This document shows positions 54,617-64,000 of a stretch of DNA of 64,000 bases, one piece after another. Below the pieces are notes generated by a model that saw nothing but the letters and a program-made list of their open reading frames with translations, ran no database searches and was not told where the DNA came from. Location of the stretch: contig SDAL01000001.1 of assembly GCA_004153385.1 (NCBI GenBank), positions 744,001-808,000 on the forward strand, given 5' to 3'. The DNA is from Paracoccaceae bacterium (lineage in GTDB: Bacteria; Pseudomonadota; Alphaproteobacteria; Rhodobacterales; Rhodobacteraceae). The translations under genes were made by a program, and so were the position numbers. Positions within the stretch are counted from its first letter, which is position 1. Every line of letters begins with the position of its first letter.

Positions 54617-54647
54617 AAAGGGCGCGGCGTCAGGCTGCGCCCTTTTT
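54617..54647 (+). terminator. intrinsic terminator after nrdF
   Basis: AAAGGGCGC pairs with GCGCCCTTT around an 11-base loop and runs into TTTTT-type sequence, 31 bases after the nrdF stop. Confidence 0.85.
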
Positions 54648-54809
54648 ATATTGACCGCTTCGATAGTCCAGCAACGGGCCTGCAACCCCGCCCCCGGGAT
54701 GTGAATTCATCTGATCGTCACCGCTGCGTAACAGGGCTGTCATATCCATCCCTCACATCTGCGCCGAGAGCTGCACAGCTGTGCAGTCCGATCGCAACAG
54801 GTGGGGCAC

Positions 54810-55907
54810 ATGGGCGCGATAGACATCAACGGGCTGAACAAATCCTTCGGACAGACGCAGGTTTTGCAAGATGTTTCACTTGCCATCAATGCGGGCGAGT
54901 TTGTGGCGGTGCTCGGCCCGTCGGGCTGCGGAAAAACCACGTTGTTACGCTGTCTGGCCGGATTCGAGCAGATCGGCTCCGGCACCATCCATGTAGGTGG
55001 CCGGGCCATGTCGGGCCCGCGGATGCACATGGCGCCCGAAGATCGCGGCATCGGGGTTGTGTTTCAAAACTATGCGCTGTGGCCACATATGACGGTTGCG
55101 CAGAATGTGGCCTACGGGCTGAAAATCGCGGGGATGTCGCGCCGTGATCGCCATGCGCGCGTCACCCATGCGCTGGCACTGGTCGAGATGGGCGCTTTGG
55201 CCGAACGCCGGCCCGCCGATCTGTCGGGCGGCCAGCGCCAGCGGGTGGCATTGGCGCGGTGTTTGGCGATGCAGGCGCAGGTGGTTTTGCTCGACGAGCC
55301 GCTGGCCAATCTGGATGTGCACCTGCGCGGCGCGCTAGAGGATGAATTTGCCGCCTTCCACGCCCGCACCGGCGCCACGATGTTTTATATAACACATGAT
55401 CAGTCCGAAGCCTTTGCACTGGCAGATCGTGTGGCGGTGATGGATCGGGGCCGGATCATCCAGTTCGACCGCCCCGAGGCATTATTTCGCCAGCCCCGTT
55501 GTGAAACGGTTGCAGGTTTTATTGGCGAGGGCCGCGTGATCGAGGCCGAAGACATCGTGCCCATCGGCGCAGGGCGGGCGCGGGCCCGTGTGCTGGGCGC
55601 GGAGGTTGAGCTGCGCTGTGCCCCGTCCGAAACGCGTCGCAAAACCGCGCGCATTTCGTTTCACCCTGATGATCTGGATATCCTTGCAGACCCGCACCGG
55701 ACGACAGCCTCGGGGATTGGTGCCGATATCACCCGCGCCACCTATCGTGGTGGATATCTGCGCACACAGATGACGGCGGGTCCGCAAAACCGTGTGGCGC
55801 TGACGATGAATATCGCAGCCCATGCGGGCATCGAACCCGGTCAACATATCACGGTGACGCTGAAGGACGGATGGGTCATCCCCGAAGCCCGTCAAGCCAC
55901 CGGATAA
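54810..55907 (+). CDS. ABC importer ATPase of the ferric/phosphonate/sugar-phosphate class
   Basis: 365 residues: Walker A GPSGCGKTTLL, Q-loop VVFQNYALWPHM, signature LSGGQRQRVALARCL, Walker B VVLLDEPLANLD and switch histidine in ITHDQSEAF. A C-terminal TOBE-like domain follows (about 240-360). ATG 54810 has AGGTGG six bases upstream; GTG 54801 is an alternative. It is the first gene of the cassette 54810-61450. The class (FbpC/PotA/PhnT-like) does not fix the substrate. Confidence 0.88.
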   Translation: MGAIDINGLNKSFGQTQVLQDVSLAINAGEFVAVLGPSGCGKTTLLRCLAGFEQIGSGTIHVGGRAMSGPRMHMAPEDRGIGVVFQNYALWPHMTVAQNVAYGLKIAGMSRRDRHARVTHALALVEMGALAERRPADLSGGQRQRVALARCLAMQAQVVLLDEPLANLDVHLRGALEDEFAAFHARTGATMFYITHDQSEAFALADRVAVMDRGRIIQFDRPEALFRQPRCETVAGFIGEGRVIEAEDIVPIGAGRARARVLGAEVELRCAPSETRRKTARISFHPDDLDILADPHRTTASGIGADITRATYRGGYLRTQMTAGPQNRVALTMNIAAHAGIEPGQHITVTLKDGWVIPEARQATG

Positions 55908-55991
55908 TGCCCTCGGGGCAGCTTGACCTCTGCCCGATGCGTTCACGCCCTTCCCTTAGTTTTTCCCAAACCCAACATCAGGACAGATGAC

Positions 55992-56960
55992 ATGCGCTTT
56001 CTTCCCATGACGCTTGCCGCCCTTCTTTGCTCCGGCGCGGCCTATGCCGAAACCGACCTTACGCTTTACACCAGCCAGCCCCCCGAACAGGCACAGCAAA
56101 CCGTTGACGCCTTCGAGGCGGCCCACCCCGACATCAAGGTCAACTGGACACGCAACGGGACCTCGGCACTGATGAATGTGATGCGCGCCGAGATCGAGGC
56201 CGGTCAGGTACAGGCGGATGTGCTTTTGGTGGCCGATGTCATCAACCTGGGCGCGTTGAAGGCCGGCGGCCATCTGATGGCCTACCCCGATGCACCGGTG
56301 GGCGGTTACGACAGTGCCGCCTATGACAAGGACATGATGTTTTTCGGCACCAAGGCAATTACCACAGGTATCGCCTACAATCCCCAGATCGCAGAGCCGG
56401 TCACGCATTGGAACGATCTGCTGACCGAAGAAAACCGTGGCCAGATTGCCGTGCCCTCGCCGCTGTATTCGGGGGCGGCCCTCAACCATCTGCAAGCGGC
56501 CATCAACAGCCCCGATATCGGCTGGGCTTTTTATGAAGGGTTGAACGATCTGGATATCGTGCCCGAGGGCGGCAATGGCCCCGCGACCAAAGCGGTTGCA
56601 TCGGGCATGGCGAAATATGCGATCATTGTGGATGCCAATGCGCTGCGTGCCAAGGCCGACGGCTCGCCGGTTGATTTCATCGTGCCCGAAGACGGCGTGT
56701 CCTTTGTCACAGAGCCTGTGGCGATCATGGCGGGCACCCAACATGAACAGGCCGCAAAAACCTTTGTTGATTTCCTGCTGAGCCCCGAAGGCCAGTCCCT
56801 TGTCTCCCAGCAGGGCAACCTGCCGCTTTTGGCGGATGTGCCTGCGCCCGAGGGCTTTCCCGCCCTGTCGTCAATGAAGCTGCTCTCCTTCGATGTCGAT
56901 CAGGCCGTGGAAAACAATGAAGACGTTCGCGCGAAATTTGCCGATATCTTCGGGCTATAA
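55992..56960 (+). CDS. ABC importer periplasmic binding protein, FbpA/AfuA/PhnS-like
   Basis: 322 residues with signal peptide MRFLPMTLAALLCSGAAYA. The mature domain begins ETDLTLYTSQPPEQAQQTVD, typical of the class that includes ferric-binding FbpA, hexose-phosphate-binding AfuA and 2-aminoethylphosphonate-binding PhnS. The adjacent tyrosine pair that FbpA uses for iron is absent: I find no YY anywhere in the protein. This argues against ferric ion and fits an anionic organic ligand. Confidence 0.85.
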   Translation: MRFLPMTLAALLCSGAAYAETDLTLYTSQPPEQAQQTVDAFEAAHPDIKVNWTRNGTSALMNVMRAEIEAGQVQADVLLVADVINLGALKAGGHLMAYPDAPVGGYDSAAYDKDMMFFGTKAITTGIAYNPQIAEPVTHWNDLLTEENRGQIAVPSPLYSGAALNHLQAAINSPDIGWAFYEGLNDLDIVPEGGNGPATKAVASGMAKYAIIVDANALRAKADGSPVDFIVPEDGVSFVTEPVAIMAGTQHEQAAKTFVDFLLSPEGQSLVSQQGNLPLLADVPAPEGFPALSSMKLLSFDVDQAVENNEDVRAKFADIFGL

Positions 56961-56964
56961 CCTC

Positions 56965-58704
56965 GTGGGCGCTCTTTCCCATATCCCAGCGGGACGCCCC
57001 TTTCGGGCGTTCCGGCTTTGGCGGCTTTTAACGGGCGAACGCGGGCTGGGTGGCGTGCTGTTTGTGTTCGTCGCACTGCTATCCATCGTGCCGCTGGCAC
57101 GGTTAAGCTATGCCGCGCTTGTTGTTCAGGGCAGCCTCGATCTGGACCGGATCGTGGATGTGCTCGCAGGCAGGCGGGTGATCGAGGCCACGATCAATAC
57201 CGTGTGGATTTCGGTTTCGGCCACCGTTCTGGCCACAGTTTTGGGCACGGGCGCGGCCCTTCTGGTGGGCTTGAGCGATATGCGCGCGCGCACGGTTTGG
57301 GTGTTCGGGTTCGTGCTGCCGCTGATGATCCCGCCACAGGTTACGGCACTGGCGTGGTTGCAGGCATTTTCGCCCGCCTCGCCCGTTCTGGGGCCGCTGG
57401 GGCTGTCACTTCCTCCCGGAACACGTCACCCGCTTTATTCGGCAGGCGGGATTGTGTTCCTGCTAGGGCTCTATAATGCGCCGCTTGTATTTTTATCTGT
57501 ACGCGCCTCGATCCAGCGCCTGCCCGCCAGCCTGATGGAGGCCGCCCGCGCCAGTGGTGCCCGCCCCGCACAGATGCTGCGTGACATCGTGTTGCCCCTG
57601 ATCCGCGGGGGCATCCTTGCAGGGGCGGCGCTGGCCTTTGTGTCGGCCATCGGCAATTTCGGGATACAGGCGATGCTGGGCATCCCCGCGCGTGTGCCAA
57701 CCCTGATCACGCTGATCTATCGCCAGCTCAATTCCTACGGGCCTTCGGCCCTCAACGATATGGCGCTTCTGGCGCTGGTGCTGGCGGGGCTGACTGTCGT
57801 GGGGATGAGTGTCACGGGCTGGCTGGGCCGGCGTGGCGACCAGCGCGTGGACGGCGCCGCCCACCCCCCGCGCCTGCCCTTGCGCGGTTGGCGTTGGCCG
57901 CTTGGCGTTCTGGCATGGGGCTATCTGGCCGTATGCCTTGTGCTGCCGCTCAGTGCGCTTTTGGGCACCGCACTTGTCACCGGATACGGACAGGTTCTGT
58001 CATTGGACACCATCACATTCGACAATTTTACGAATGCGCTTTTTCATCATCAGGGGCTGAGGCAGGCTTTTATCACCTCGCTCTGGCTTACCGTGCTCAG
58101 CGTCGTGGTTTTGATCCCTGTCGCGGTCGCGTTGGGCTATGTTCTGACATGGCGGCGCACTTGGATCGCCCGCGCGCTACGGCTTGCATCCGAAATGGCC
58201 TATGCCCTGCCCGGTATCATCATCGGCGTGGCAATGATCCTGTTTTTCCTGCGTCCCATGCCGCTTATCGGCACCGCCGCCTATGGCACGGTCTGGGTGA
58301 TCCTTGCCGCCTATCTTTCAAACTTTCTGGCGCTCGCACTCAGGCCGATCCTTGGCGCCTATGGCCAGATCGACCGCGCACTGGACGAGGCGGCACAGCT
58401 GACAGGGGCCACCCTTTTCCAGCGCCTGCGCGACATCATCCTGCCCGCACTGGCACCGGCGGCTATGGCCTCGGCGATATTGGTGTTCATGACCGCGATC
58501 AACGAGATCCAGACATCGGTTCTTCTGGTGTCATCGCGCGCACAGACCATCGGGCCGATGATCATTTTTCTGGAGGAGGCAGGCTCGTCCACACTGGCCG
58601 CCGCCGTGGGCTGCCTGATGGTGGGCTTGGTCCTTCTGCTGATGGGGATCAGCCTGATCTTCGCGAAACATCTACCACAAGGGGTCCTGCCATGGCGCGA
58701 TTGA
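56965..58704 (+). CDS. fused double ABC permease (two BPD_transp_1 domains)
   Basis: About 579 residues with some 12 transmembrane helices, two permease domains in one chain. Each carries an EAA loop: EAARASGARPAQMLRDIVLP and EAAQLTGATLFQRLRDIILP. This fused layout is usual for Fe3+/phosphonate-class importers. The start is uncertain: GTG 56965 follows the binding-protein stop by four bases but lacks a Shine-Dalgarno, whereas ATG 56917 lies inside the preceding gene. Its end overlaps the MBL-fold gene by 13 bases. Confidence 0.85.
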   Translation: MGALSHIPAGRPFRAFRLWRLLTGERGLGGVLFVFVALLSIVPLARLSYAALVVQGSLDLDRIVDVLAGRRVIEATINTVWISVSATVLATVLGTGAALLVGLSDMRARTVWVFGFVLPLMIPPQVTALAWLQAFSPASPVLGPLGLSLPPGTRHPLYSAGGIVFLLGLYNAPLVFLSVRASIQRLPASLMEAARASGARPAQMLRDIVLPLIRGGILAGAALAFVSAIGNFGIQAMLGIPARVPTLITLIYRQLNSYGPSALNDMALLALVLAGLTVVGMSVTGWLGRRGDQRVDGAAHPPRLPLRGWRWPLGVLAWGYLAVCLVLPLSALLGTALVTGYGQVLSLDTITFDNFTNALFHHQGLRQAFITSLWLTVLSVVVLIPVAVALGYVLTWRRTWIARALRLASEMAYALPGIIIGVAMILFFLRPMPLIGTAAYGTVWVILAAYLSNFLALALRPILGAYGQIDRALDEAAQLTGATLFQRLRDIILPALAPAAMASAILVFMTAINEIQTSVLLVSSRAQTIGPMIIFLEEAGSSTLAAAVGCLMVGLVLLLMGISLIFAKHLPQGVLPWRD

Positions 58705-59723
58705 CCGCGATCAGCGGATTTGGTGCAAAATCCGCTGCGATATTCCTGCTCGAACTTCACGGGCGCCGTGTGCTGTTCGATCTGGGCTGCGCGCTGGAGG
58801 CCGGCCCACGCCCCGACCTGTCCGCCATCGGCGTGGTGGATGCCGTGCTGTTGAGCCATGCCCATATCGATCATGCAGGCGGGTTGGACCGTCTTGACGA
58901 AGTCGGCGCGCCGCTCGTGTATATGACACAGCGCACCGCCATGGCCCTGCCGCACGCGATTTCCGAAACCCAAATCCGGCGCCTGCCGGAGCGGGGCCAC
59001 GCGCAGGTGGCAGGCCTTGATCTGCATGTCGGACGGGCGGGCCACGCACCGGGCGGGATCTGGTTTCATCTGCCAACCCCCGCAGGCGGGTTTGTCTATA
59101 GCGGGGATTTCAGCCTTGAAAGCCGCAGCCTGCCGTTCGATCCGTTTCCGGCGGCGGCAAGCATGGTGGTGGATGCCTCCTACGGGGATCGCGATGACCT
59201 TCTGGCCACGCAAGCCACCCGTATCGCACTGGCCGCAGCCCAAGGTGCGGTGCTGCCGTGCCCTGATGCCGGTCGCGGCCCCGACATGGTGATGGAGCTG
59301 CGCGCACAGGGGCTGGATGTGCATGCCTGCGCCCGCATCGTGGCCGAATGCGCAACCATCATGCCCGCGCGTGATCTGCCGCCCGTCGTAGATATGCATA
59401 CCGCACACCCCCGCCACGTGATCGTGGCCACAGGCCCCAACGCGGATCACGGGCTGTGTGCGCAGCTGCATACGCGCGAGGGGTTCCGCTTTATATTCTC
59501 AAGCCATGTGCCCGAAACCAGCCCCGCCGCCGCGATGATCGCCACTGGCCGCGCAAAATGGATGGGCTGGAATGTACATCCTCGCGCCCGCGACCTGATC
59601 GCGCTTCTGGATCTACCGGAACTGCGCCAGATCATGCCAGCGTTTGTCGATCCGGCAACCGCCCCGACCCTGTGCCGCACGCTTGGCCCGAAATGCATCA
59701 CCACACCGGTCATGGCGGTATGA
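58692..59723 (+). CDS. metallo-beta-lactamase-fold hydrolase, beta-CASP-like
   Basis: 343 residues, no signal peptide. The metal motif HAHIDH (residues 56-61) sits in VLLSHAHIDHAGG, and FVYSGDFSLESRSLPFDPFP with VVDASYGDRDD resembles the GDF and ESTYGDR motifs of beta-CASP nucleases (CPSF-73, RNase J). The C-terminal HPRARDLIALLDL resembles the final beta-CASP histidine motif. It could therefore be a phosphodiesterase or nuclease-like hydrolase acting on a small imported substrate. It overlaps the permease by 13 bases, so it is coupled to transport. The frame upstream of 58692 belongs to the permease in another phase. Confidence 0.8.
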   Translation: MARLTAISGFGAKSAAIFLLELHGRRVLFDLGCALEAGPRPDLSAIGVVDAVLLSHAHIDHAGGLDRLDEVGAPLVYMTQRTAMALPHAISETQIRRLPERGHAQVAGLDLHVGRAGHAPGGIWFHLPTPAGGFVYSGDFSLESRSLPFDPFPAAASMVVDASYGDRDDLLATQATRIALAAAQGAVLPCPDAGRGPDMVMELRAQGLDVHACARIVAECATIMPARDLPPVVDMHTAHPRHVIVATGPNADHGLCAQLHTREGFRFIFSSHVPETSPAAAMIATGRAKWMGWNVHPRARDLIALLDLPELRQIMPAFVDPATAPTLCRTLGPKCITTPVMAV

Positions 59724-59759
59724 CCTCCAGCCCGCATCATGAATGAAAGGCCCACCCAT

Positions 59760-60392
59760 ATGGTTCACCCGCCTGCCTCCGATACGATACGCCATTTCCT
59801 GCCGCACGACACACCCGATACAGAGGCCCGCGAAGACGACCGGCCGCTCTTGATAAAGGTCCATGATCTGGCGACCAGCGGCCCGCCAAGCGGTGTGGAT
59901 GCGCTGTGGCTGGGCAATCTGCGCGGGGTCGAGGATCCGCAGGCCTTGGCGCAGGCAGGCATTACCGCCAGCCTCAATCTGGCAATGAATATTTTCCCCG
60001 GGCCGCTTGTTCTGCCCGATGGCACGTCAATGCGCCGCTATCAGTTGGGCCTGCTCGACGGGGCGGGAAATATGCCACAGATGCTTGCGGCAGCCGTGTT
60101 ATGTATAGATGCACAAACGGCGGGCTACACCACGCCCAAACCCCACTATCCGCCCCATGCGCGTGGCGGATTGGTTGTGCATTGCCGTGGCGGGCGTTCG
60201 CGCTCTGTCACGGCGCTGGCGCTGTGGCTGTGCCAGCGGTGCCCTGTCGCGTATGGTGAGTTCGGGCAGACACTGGCGCGCCTGCGTCAGATACGGGGGC
60301 TGGATGACACCTATCCGCTGCGCCCGATGATCGACTTGGGCAAGGCGGTTCTGGCCGATTTTCCGCTGCCCGCGCGCGCCGGCCCTGTCTGA
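59760..60392 (+). CDS. dual-specificity/tyrosine-phosphatase-like protein
   Basis: 210 residues from ATG 59760 (AAAGG about nine bases upstream; ATG 59739 would add seven residues). The CX5R signature is HCRGGRSRSVTAL, with the catalytic cysteine at about residue 142 and the arginine six residues on. The fold before it (DALWLGNLRGVEDPQALAQAGITASLNL) matches dual-specificity phosphatases. No signal peptide, so it would act in the cytoplasm on imported phospho-substrate or on a protein. It is unusual beside an ABC importer. The stop lies in the first unit of a short tandem repeat. Confidence 0.82.
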   Translation: MVHPPASDTIRHFLPHDTPDTEAREDDRPLLIKVHDLATSGPPSGVDALWLGNLRGVEDPQALAQAGITASLNLAMNIFPGPLVLPDGTSMRRYQLGLLDGAGNMPQMLAAAVLCIDAQTAGYTTPKPHYPPHARGGLVVHCRGGRSRSVTALALWLCQRCPVAYGEFGQTLARLRQIRGLDDTYPLRPMIDLGKAVLADFPLPARAGPV

Positions 60393-60426
60393 TGGGCCGT
60401 GTCTGATGGGCCATATGTGATGGGGC
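60386..60426. repeat. short tandem repeat, 14-base period
   Basis: TGTCTGATGGGCC at 60386-60398 and 60400-60412, then a degenerate third copy ending TGTGATGGGGC at about 60416-60426. It covers the phosphatase stop codon and the leader of the LacI-type regulator gene. Slippage could change the spacing between these genes. Confidence 0.7.
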
Positions 60427-60430
60427 GCAC

Positions 60431-61450
60431 ATGACAGGCCGTGCAAAACAGGCTGTGTCAGCGGCCGATGTGGCGCGTGCGGCAGGTGTCTCGCGCTCTG
60501 CGGTGTCGCGCGCGTTCACGCCGGGGGGATGCGTCTCTGCACAGGCGCGCCGCCGTATTCTGCAAGCGGCCGAGGATATGGGCTACAAGGTCAACCGGCT
60601 GGCCCGCAGCCTGCATCAGGAGCGGTCCGATCTGGTGGGCGTGGTGGGCAGCAATTTTTCCAACCCCTATATATCGGCGCAAATCGATGCGCTCAGCCAT
60701 GCGCTGCGCGAGGCTGGCTTGCACTGCCTGCTTTTGAACGCAGCCGATGATCAGGACGATCTGGCGGGATTGCTTGAATACCGTGTGCGCACGGTGGTGA
60801 TGCTGTCAGGTGCGGCCCCGGACAAATTGATCCGGCTGTGTGCGGCCAATGGCGCGCGCATGGTGCTGATCAACCGCCCCGCCCCGACATGCCGCGCGCA
60901 GGCAGACCTGATTATGGCCGATAGCGCGGGGGGTGGAAAAATGGCCGCACAGCGGTTGCGCAAGGCCGGCTGCCGCCATGTGGCCGTGGTGAGTTCAGGC
61001 GCGCGCACCAGCGCCAAACGCGCCCGCGCCACCGCCTTCTGCCAAGAGATGCAGCGCCATTCGATCCCTGTCGAGGTCTGGGCGCGCGGCCCCAACAGCT
61101 ATGAAACCGGCGTCCATGCAGCGCGCCATCTGCTGGGCGGGCCGCAGGGCCAAACCCCGAAGATAGACGGTATTTTCGGGGTCACCGACGAGATCGCGCT
61201 GGGTGTGCTGAATACCGCGCGCCACGAGATTGGCCTGCGCGTGCCCGAAGACCTCGCGGTGATCGGCTTTGATGATGCACCGATCTCGCAATGGTCCTCA
61301 CACGGGCTGACCACCATCCGTCAGTCGCTGCCCGCGCTGACCCGCGCCACATTGGAGGCAATCGCCCGCGAACCGGATGCCCCACCCAGCCTTATCCAGA
61401 TCCCTGTTGAACTGGTCGAGCGTTCAAGCGTCGCGCGCAGCGTGGATTAA
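60431..61450 (+). CDS. LacI-family regulator of the organophosphate-type cassette
   Basis: 339 residues. Helix-turn-helix VSAADVARAAGVSRSAVSRAF at residues 9-29, hinge region VNRLARSLHQ, and a sugar-binding-type sensor domain (SNFSNPYISAQIDALSHAL, FGVTDEIALGVLN, IGFDDAPISQWSSHGLTTIRQ). It is the last gene of the block and its 3' end overlaps cobF by four bases on the opposite strand. The sensor class usually binds sugars or sugar phosphates, supporting a sugar-like inducer. Confidence 0.87.
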   Translation: MTGRAKQAVSAADVARAAGVSRSAVSRAFTPGGCVSAQARRRILQAAEDMGYKVNRLARSLHQERSDLVGVVGSNFSNPYISAQIDALSHALREAGLHCLLLNAADDQDDLAGLLEYRVRTVVMLSGAAPDKLIRLCAANGARMVLINRPAPTCRAQADLIMADSAGGGKMAAQRLRKAGCRHVAVVSSGARTSAKRARATAFCQEMQRHSIPVEVWARGPNSYETGVHAARHLLGGPQGQTPKIDGIFGVTDEIALGVLNTARHEIGLRVPEDLAVIGFDDAPISQWSSHGLTTIRQSLPALTRATLEAIAREPDAPPSLIQIPVELVERSSVARSVD

Positions 61451-63109: not shown

Positions 63110-63139
63110 AAAAACGCCGCAGCCCAAGGCATAGCGGCG
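63110..63139 (-). terminator. terminator stem between the cobalamin riboswitch and cbiM
   Basis: On the minus strand CGCCGC pairs with GCGGCG, with an inner GCC/GGC stem, and runs directly into TTTTT. It lies between the aptamer and the cbiM start, in the position of an expression-platform terminator. Confidence 0.85.
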
Positions 63140-63151
63140 CAGGTGAACGAT

Positions 63152-63330
63152 GGCAGGTCTCCTGACTTCGCGGGTCCGGGCCGATGTCCCGTCCTACCTT
63201 CCCGGCGTAAAATTCTGGGCCAGTGGCATAAACGAACGGGCGGCTCGCCGCTTACAGTTGCGGGGGCAGTCACGGATTTGGCGCCTGATGGCTACACCGC
63301 ACCGTGTTCCCTTTTCACCCAAGCACCTGT
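63152..63330 (-). promoter_or_regulatory. adenosylcobalamin riboswitch upstream of cbiM
   Basis: Read leftward the conserved segments appear in order: GGTGCTTGGGTGAAAAGGGA, GACTGCCCCCGCAACTGTAA, the core GCCACTGG, GCCGGGAAGG and AGTCAGGAGACCTGCC. These match the cobalamin (AdoCbl) aptamer. It lies after cobA and before cbiM, with a terminator stem after it, so high cobalamin should switch off cbiM (and perhaps cobF). Confidence 0.95.
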
Positions 63331-63364
63331 TCATGGTGCTTTTCGGGAACCATCACACGCAAGA

Positions 63365-64000
63365 TCACACGCGTGTGATCGCGCTGTCAATACTGCAAAG
63401 TGCGCCATAGAAAATCAACGCGGGCTTGAGCACACCTTGTGCGGTGTCTTGCGACAAGTGTTCGGCCATGTCCTGCACGCTTGCGCGCCAGATCACCTGA
63501 TCGGGCTGTGACACGCTTTCGGCCATCATCGCAGGCGTATCGGCGGGCAGTCCCGCCGCAATCAAAAGCCGTGCCAATTTCACGAATGTGCGCCGCCCCA
63601 TATAAACGGCTGTTACCGCATTGGGATCGGCAAGGGCTGGCATGTTCAACTCCTCAGGCAAGGCGCCGGTCACATCATGGCCGGTGACAAACTGCAACCG
63701 CCGTGCGGTCATCCGGCGGGTCAGCGGGATATCCGCCGCCGCCGCCGCCGCCGAGGCCGTGGTCACACCAGGGATAATCTCGAACCCGATATCGGCCTGA
63801 TGACAGGCCAGAATCTCCTCCTCCAGCCGTCCGAATATTCCGCTGTCACCGGATTTCAGCCGAACCACCCGCGCACCGGTGGCGGCATGATCCACCAGCA
63901 GCCTGCTCACATGATCTTGTTTCGGTGACGCACGCCCCGCACGTTTACCCACCCCGATCAGCTCTGCGGAGGGGGCCGCAAATTCAAGGATCGGGCCGGC
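63365..64000 (-). CDS. cobA: uroporphyrinogen-III C-methyltransferase, partial at right edge
   Basis: C-terminal 211 residues of a SUMT-family protein; the frame stays open to position 64000. LIGVGKRAGRASPKQ and VVRLKSGDSGIFGRLEEEI are the diagnostic SUMT segments, followed by FEIIPGVTTASAAAA and TRRLQFVTGHD-like ARRLQFVTGHD. It makes precorrin-2, the branch point into cobalamin and siroheme. It reads toward the riboswitch and cbiM. Confidence 0.92.
   Translation of the reverse strand, partial: AGPILEFAAPSAELIGVGKRAGRASPKQDHVSRLLVDHAATGARVVRLKSGDSGIFGRLEEEILACHQADIGFEIIPGVTTASAAAAAADIPLTRRMTARRLQFVTGHDVTGALPEELNMPALADPNAVTAVYMGRRTFVKLARLLIAAGLPADTPAMMAESVSQPDQVIWRASVQDMAEHLSQDTAQGVLKPALIFYGALCSIDSAITRV

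Follow-up and report, generated by a model that had tools for sequence, protein, structure and literature searches.

A candidate organophosphate import operon of a Paracoccaceae bacterium combines an AfuA-like transporter with a beta-CASP-like hydrolase and an exchangeable phosphatase

Gene content and layout of the operon

We analyzed a six-gene operon in a 64,000-nucleotide stretch of the genome of a Paracoccaceae bacterium (positions 744,001 to 808,000 of contig SDAL01000001.1, assembly GCA_004153385.1; this whole stretch is referred to below as the window). Judging from its genes, import of an organic phosphorus compound is very probably the role of the operon, and two cytoplasmic enzymes would then cut out the phosphate. 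Open reading frame (ORF) calls and profile searches located six plus-strand genes between nrdB upstream and the opposite-strand cobF downstream. These six co-directional genes had been reported in a preliminary description of the window; all of them were present where it had placed them, and their families were confirmed by the profile searches. The first gene (54810–55907) encodes an ATP-binding cassette (ABC) transporter ATPase of the PhnT2/PotA type (ABC_tran, 7.8e-37; PhnT2, 308 bits, under the cut-off of 458). It is followed by a gene for a periplasmic binding protein of the SBP_bac family with a signal peptide and an AfuA/P5PA-like fold (55992–56960), for which the best NCBIfam name was phnS2 (117 bits versus a cut-off of 393). 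The third ORF (56893–58704) encodes a fused double permease with two BPD_transp_1 domains in one protein; its start is likely the GTG at 56965, because the permeases of most relatives begin just past the stop codon of the binding protein. A metallo-beta-lactamase (MBL)/beta-CASP-like hydrolase (58692–59723; Lactamase_B, 6.4e-14) overlaps the permease gene by 13 bases. The last two genes encode a CX5R phosphatase of the dual-specificity/protein tyrosine phosphatase (DSP/PTP) type (59739–60392), with the P-loop HCRGGRSRS and PTP-SAK/DSPc matches at sub-threshold score, and a LacI-family regulator with LacI and Peripla_BP_3 domains (60431–61450). RbsR, UriR, GalS and CytR were the best NCBIfam names of the regulator, none of them above cut-off.

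Upstream of the ATPase gene, the nrdB unit ends in a terminator-like hairpin on the plus strand (54617–54645; 12-pair stem, 5-base loop and T-rich tail). Then come a weak Pho-box-like site on the plus strand, GCGTAACAGGGCTGTCAT (54726–54743; matrix score 8.3, shuffle P 0.013), and a perfect 16-base palindrome, CTGCACAGCTGTGCAG (54771–54786), which has counterparts in LacI-bearing relatives and is proposed as the LacI operator. Additionally, ARAGORN placed a tRNA of unassigned type, its anticodon four bases long, on the minus strand inside the binding-protein gene (56728–56824); this tRNA had no Rfam support and is probably a false call. Beyond the cassette, a cobalamin riboswitch lies upstream of the cob genes (63135–63369, minus strand). 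The host genome measures 3.77 Mb, and an alpha transfer-messenger RNA was detected in it.

Conservation of the gene set and exchange of the phosphatase

When GTDB genomes were queried with the MBL protein, eight loci were returned. In all of them, genes for the ATPase, binding protein, permease, MBL and phosphatase stood in identical order, with protein identities of ~37–77% and varying flanking genes. The set was additionally present in G128 (L039) and G617 (L140), giving a total of 10 other genomes with differing neighbors, and it recurs across Hyphomicrobiales and Rhodobacterales. This conservation rules out a chance neighborhood. On annotated replicons of Alloyangia, Salipiger, Pannonibacter and Paracoccus, the MBL is likewise adjoined by the phosphatase, and an Alloyangia plasmid carries all six genes among unrelated neighbors. 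The LacI gene lies downstream in the window and in L031 and is divergent upstream in L033, L035, L036 and L037. The flanking genes gave no lead to the substrate, as they vary (urocanase, TctA, a TonB receptor, mannitol dehydrogenase, and a second solute-binding protein [SBP]). The cassette closest to that of the window (L031:5234–9631, in a record named Marinicella sp. W31) has its permease and LacI genes each split over two frames, which could reflect sequencing error, decay or a wrong name for the genome.

Next, the co-occurrence of the genes was counted in two genome samples. Among 385 genomes sampled class-wide, the binding protein was found in 32 and the MBL in eight; in seven of these eight, the binding-protein gene adjoined the MBL, whereas the remaining locus was at a contig end. 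Among 293 genomes of the order, 42 held the MBL and 56 the binding protein, and every one of the 42 MBL genomes also held the binding protein (P ~1e-38). We then compared 58 MBL loci, the window excluded, with 21 transporter loci that lack the MBL. A phosphatase followed the MBL in 54 of the 58 (53 within 400 bases, plus L153 with SurE at 407); the remaining four were L074 and L086 of type E described below, L085 at a contig end, and L152, where the MBL occurs without a transporter. In contrast, none of the 21 MBL-less loci had any of these phosphatase types (Fisher 9e-15).

The linkage of two hydrolases to the transporter, as previously proposed for the window, was thus borne out across a class of bacteria, and the set is no one-off of the window genome; the transporter with two enzymes, the second of them varying in kind, occurs in more than 50 other bacterial genomes. 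The wider transporter family is often found without hydrolases, as in the 21 loci, but both enzymes are then missing together. Nor was the MBL spread over unrelated loci; it adjoins transporter genes in 56 of the 58.

The type of phosphatase follows the clade and comes from three unrelated superfamilies, namely CX5R, histidine phosphatase (mostly with a PNKP-like HAD phosphatase) and SurE. Arrangement A, that of the window, combines LacI with the CX5R phosphatase. Arrangement B has a DeoR/GlpR-type regulator and the order SBP-permease-ATPase-MBL-histidine phosphatase, usually followed by the PNKP-like HAD phosphatase, and arrangement C has the order ATPase-MBL-histidine phosphatase-SBP-permease, with a ROK regulator upstream in L040. 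Arrangement D reads SBP-permease-ATPase-MBL-SurE, and arrangement E, from one genus, contains the MBL and SBP with no recognized phosphatase. The regulator thus varies among LacI, DeoR and ROK. In the binding-protein tree, A, B, C with E, and D formed separate clades, with MBL-less clades lying among them. These results indicated that the MBL and the phosphatase are gained or lost jointly and that the phosphatase slot is filled by unrelated superfamilies. We regard this joint presence or absence, together with the exchange of the phosphatase, as the strongest evidence for a task of freeing phosphate from an imported compound.

Two assignments were discarded: in the DeoR type, the gene that follows the MBL (~190 aa) encodes a histidine phosphatase and not PhnN, and an apparent MBL-SBP fusion in G404 and G220 was merely two long overlapping frames. 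In L141 (G700), a type B operon lacks the binding-protein gene between DeoR and the permease, and the only binding-protein match of that genome lies on another contig. A conjugative plasmid of Enterobacter hormaechei also carries a type B cassette (SBP-permease-ATPase-MBL-histidine phosphatase; L177:2204–7607), close to an IS5-family transposase; the cassette had no megablast match among 5,426 E. coli genomes.

The CX5R phosphatase was found in other contexts as well. Its family occurred five times in the class-wide sample, each time beside an FbpA-type ABC transporter. A sister cassette in the window genome (L162:2180–11457; contig C5, ~135679–144956) encodes a fused permease, a binding protein, an ATPase, the CX5R phosphatase and, in place of the MBL, a calcineurin-like phosphoesterase. 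It also includes a Na/Pi carrier that has PhoU domains, and its LacI gene is encoded on the other strand. A third relative, on plasmids of Erwinia, Sinorhizobium and Thioclava (L178, L179 and L180), joins an iron-type ABC transporter and a LacI-like or RpiR regulator with the CX5R phosphatase and an adjoining inositol-monophosphatase-family enzyme, which is apparently fused with the phosphatase in Erwinia.

Features of the binding protein, the two hydrolases and the promoter region

By sequence, the closest solved relatives of the binding protein were VcA0625 (8x1a), AfuA (4r72) and P5PA (6wce). By fold, its model (predicted local distance difference test [pLDDT] 92) came closest to VcA0625 and AfuA, both of which bind glucose 6-phosphate, and then to metal-citrate and iron proteins of that fold, including FbpA and MctA. 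In AfuA, the phosphate is cradled by Ser37, Ser148 and Gly149 at helix starts, and the sugar ring is read by H205, D206 and E229 (PMC4546632); in P5PA, Thr37 occupies the position of AfuA Ser37 (PMC8427247). The residues were mapped with a chain-to-paper offset of two, which fits Ser9, Thr11, Gly36 and Ser37. In the profile alignment, the AfuA/P5PA cradle was kept as G56, T57, S160 and G161; T57, S160 and G161 were invariant in 34 relatives, and AfuA Thr150 was replaced by Ala162. The AfuA triad corresponds to A215, N216 and D234, so that merely an acid at the 229 position was retained. The adjacent iron tyrosine pair of FbpA was found in none of the 34 aligned rows, where the region reads D214-A-N-A-L, in agreement with its absence noted in the preliminary description. 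Because the cradle is kept, the AfuA sugar residues are replaced and the tyrosine pair is absent, the binding protein is placed by its sequence among binders of phosphate esters, but with a distinct specificity. The earlier proposal of organophosphate import gains from this placement in the AfuA/VcA0625/P5PA branch; its sugar phosphate, in the AfuA sense, is unsupported, the sugar-reading triad being absent.

The MBL alignment (22 rows) showed invariant HxHxDH, GH, GD, DxSY and PxxGR motifs, with H56, H58, D60, H61, H118 and D139. The motif A acid D161 was also invariant, and H296 of motif B aligned with the SAH histidine of CPSF73. Beta-CASP nucleases were the closest solved relatives by sequence, and the model (pLDDT 94) matched CPSF73, TTHA0252, archaeal CPSF and RNase J with a template modeling (TM) score of ~0.78 by query length. 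The motif C histidine is a metal ligand of beta-CASP enzymes and is V in some members; here it is absent, with LVHGE of CPSF73 aligned to MPAFV (A317/F318). Thus, the earlier label of an MBL/beta-CASP-like protein holds for the fold, motifs 1–4, motif A and motif B, but not for the metal-binding histidine of motif C. Compared with CPSF73, TTHA0252 and RNase J, with which it shares HxHxDH, GH, GD, the motif A acid, the P-x-x-GR block, the motif B histidine and the fold, the window enzyme is only ~340 aa long, with a shortened beta-CASP part, and is located in an uptake operon. A diesterase is its plain reading; this is uncertain, and with the altered metal site a different reaction is conceivable.

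The P-loop of the CX5R phosphatase and D107, which lies in a conserved loop, were invariant in 10 sequences, all of which showed the HCX5R(S/T) pattern and a DSPc domain match, and D107 probably serves as the general-acid Asp. The PTP-SAK profile (PF22784) scored 26.0 bits (E 1.1e-5), just under its gathering score of 27. PTP-SAK and dual-specificity phosphatases have the CX5R P-loop and the conserved D107 region in common with the window protein, which, however, remains just below the Pfam cut-off and is partnered with a transporter instead of RNA repair.

Regarding regulation, an operator-like TTGCAC-N4-GTGCAA stands before the ATPase gene of LacI-bearing relatives, in the same place as the window palindrome. 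It also occurs in L034, whose locus shows no LacI, and is absent from L032, L038 and L039, which have no LacI either. Genome searches found the perfect TGCACA-NN-TGTGCA in a single copy in the window genome, at the cassette, and one copy of the motif in each of five relatives' genomes; for L034, the perfect copy is located elsewhere in the genome. The palindrome is essentially confined to the cassette, so that no other regulated gene could be read from it. By sequence features, namely a LacI helix-turn-helix, a Peripla_BP domain and a palindromic operator at the predicted target, the LacI protein resembles a local regulator. Pho-box-like sites were scored as two 7-base direct repeats 11 apart, with a matrix hand-made from the E. 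coli consensus, and in most relatives they are strong and lie ~15 to 35 bases upstream of the palindrome. At shuffle P ≤ 0.05, 17 of the 18 MBL operons scored had such a site (Fisher 3e-19, a value overstated by related loci and a post hoc matrix). The window site GCGTAACAGGGCTGTCAT aligned with the strong site CTGAAACAGAACTGTCAC of L031, and although weak, it outscores the top site upstream of pstS in the window genome (8.3 versus 6.5). The genome has a PhoB gene, via which the pst operon was located; the PstS family TIGR00975 had no match in the genome. Overall, the regulatory features point to phosphate supply and a carbohydrate-type signal.

Proposed function, alternatives and significance

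We propose that the operon probably serves phosphate scavenging, by importing an organophosphate of the phosphodiester type that would then be hydrolyzed in two intracellular steps. The AfuA-like binding protein would capture the organophosphate on the periplasmic side, and the families of the ATPase and the fused permease suggest that these two proteins import it intact. In the cytoplasm, the MBL/beta-CASP-like enzyme would open the compound, most likely at a phosphodiester bond, after which the CX5R phosphatase would remove the remaining phosphate monoester. Conservation of the site at 54771–54786 suggests that LacI represses from it until a ligand appears, which is probably the carbohydrate, polyol or nucleoside moiety set free by hydrolysis. 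PhoB may activate the operons of most relatives, and perhaps that of the window, at phosphate shortage. A ribosyl/nucleotide-type or a glycerol/polyol phosphodiester would fit best as substrate. Hints of the former are the RNase-like fold, the PNKP-like HAD phosphatase, SurE (a nucleotidase family), the alpha-ribazole-phosphatase-like histidine phosphatases and the RbsR/UriR/CytR names, and the LacI, DeoR/GlpR and ROK regulators hint at carbohydrate or glycerol; none is decisive.

Several observations weigh against this proposal. Replacement of the motif C histidine (A317/F318) makes diesterase activity uncertain, and L074 and L086, from one genus, contain the MBL and the transporter with no recognized phosphatase, while L152 has the MBL alone. 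The window Pho-box-like site is weak, sites of equal score occurring nine times in 64 kb, and the matrix, drawn up once the motif was already known, was applied to related, non-independent loci.

The loss of the motif C histidine would also fit an importer of a phosphate monoester, such as a sugar phosphate, polyol phosphate or nucleotide, from which the phosphatase frees phosphate while the MBL does another job, for instance opening a lactone or cyclic ester. UlaG, for example, acts on ascorbate-6-phosphate lactone. AfuA, VcA0625 and P5PA, the closest characterized binding proteins, take monoesters, and LacI, DeoR and ROK are carbohydrate-sensing regulator families. However, the MBL is nearest to beta-CASP phosphodiesterases in sequence and fold, not to UlaG-type lactonases, and a calcineurin-like phosphoesterase partners the phosphatase in the sister cassette; we consider the monoester explanation rather unlikely.

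Import of 2-aminoethylphosphonate or another phosphonate by a system of the PhnSTUV/AepX kind, with the hydrolases serving a later step, is suggested by the best NCBIfam names, PhnS2, PhnT2 and PhnU2. The respective profiles, however, remained far under their cut-offs (TIGR03261, 117 of 393 bits; TIGR03265, 308 of 458; TIGR03262, 113 of 593), and phnW, phnX, phnA and C-P lyase were not recognized in the examined flanks; the operon has phosphoester hydrolases instead. Such an importer is therefore very improbable. The fold common to FbpA and MctA and the RefSeq product name "iron ABC transporter permease" would suit a ferric-iron or metal-citrate importer with the hydrolases as bystanders, but the tyrosine pair is missing from all 34 relatives, the hydrolases are co-conserved with the transporter and most relatives have Pho-box-like sites, so that we give this explanation hardly any weight.

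Returning to organophosphate import with two-step hydrolysis, its functional logic resembles that of UgpBAEC-UgpQ, a PhoB-controlled ABC importer of glycerophosphodiester with an operon-encoded intracellular diesterase. Ugp, in contrast, has another binding-protein family, a non-MBL UgpQ, no partner phosphatase and no LacI. AfuABC, which takes hexose and heptose phosphates, and the pyridoxal phosphate system of P5PA have the binding-protein fold and phosphate-cradle positions in common with the window operon (PMC4546632, PMC8427247); nevertheless, the sugar triad is replaced in the window protein, and AfuABC has no described dedicated hydrolase pair or LacI gene. The 2-aminoethylphosphonate systems PhnSTUV, AepXVW and AepSTU share the binding-protein superfamily, but the window proteins score far below their cut-offs and phosphoester hydrolases replace the phosphonate enzymes. 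By these residue and cut-off tests, the operon is assigned to neither AfuABC nor the phosphonate importers. No description of this gene combination was found in the open-licence literature searched, most subscription papers lying outside that search; the parts are of known kinds, and the combination appears undescribed. As a tentative generalization, these loci may represent a modular phosphorus-scavenging system, with an FbpA-fold importer, a beta-CASP-type enzyme diverted from RNA processing to act as a small-molecule phosphodiesterase, a phosphatase slot occupied by enzymes of three or more unrelated superfamilies, and regulators of three unrelated kinds. The imported phosphodiester would then be of a novel kind and might resemble a nucleotide.

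Dissolved organic phosphorus is a main phosphorus source where phosphate is scarce, and few importers of it are known. About one in seven genomes of the sampled order (42 of 293) carries the MBL, nearly all in such an operon, and public annotation calls the transporter an "iron" transporter. The exchange of phosphatase and regulator makes the role in phosphate release directly testable. If the proposal is true, the MBL would be one of the rare enzymes with an RNA-nuclease fold that act on small molecules.

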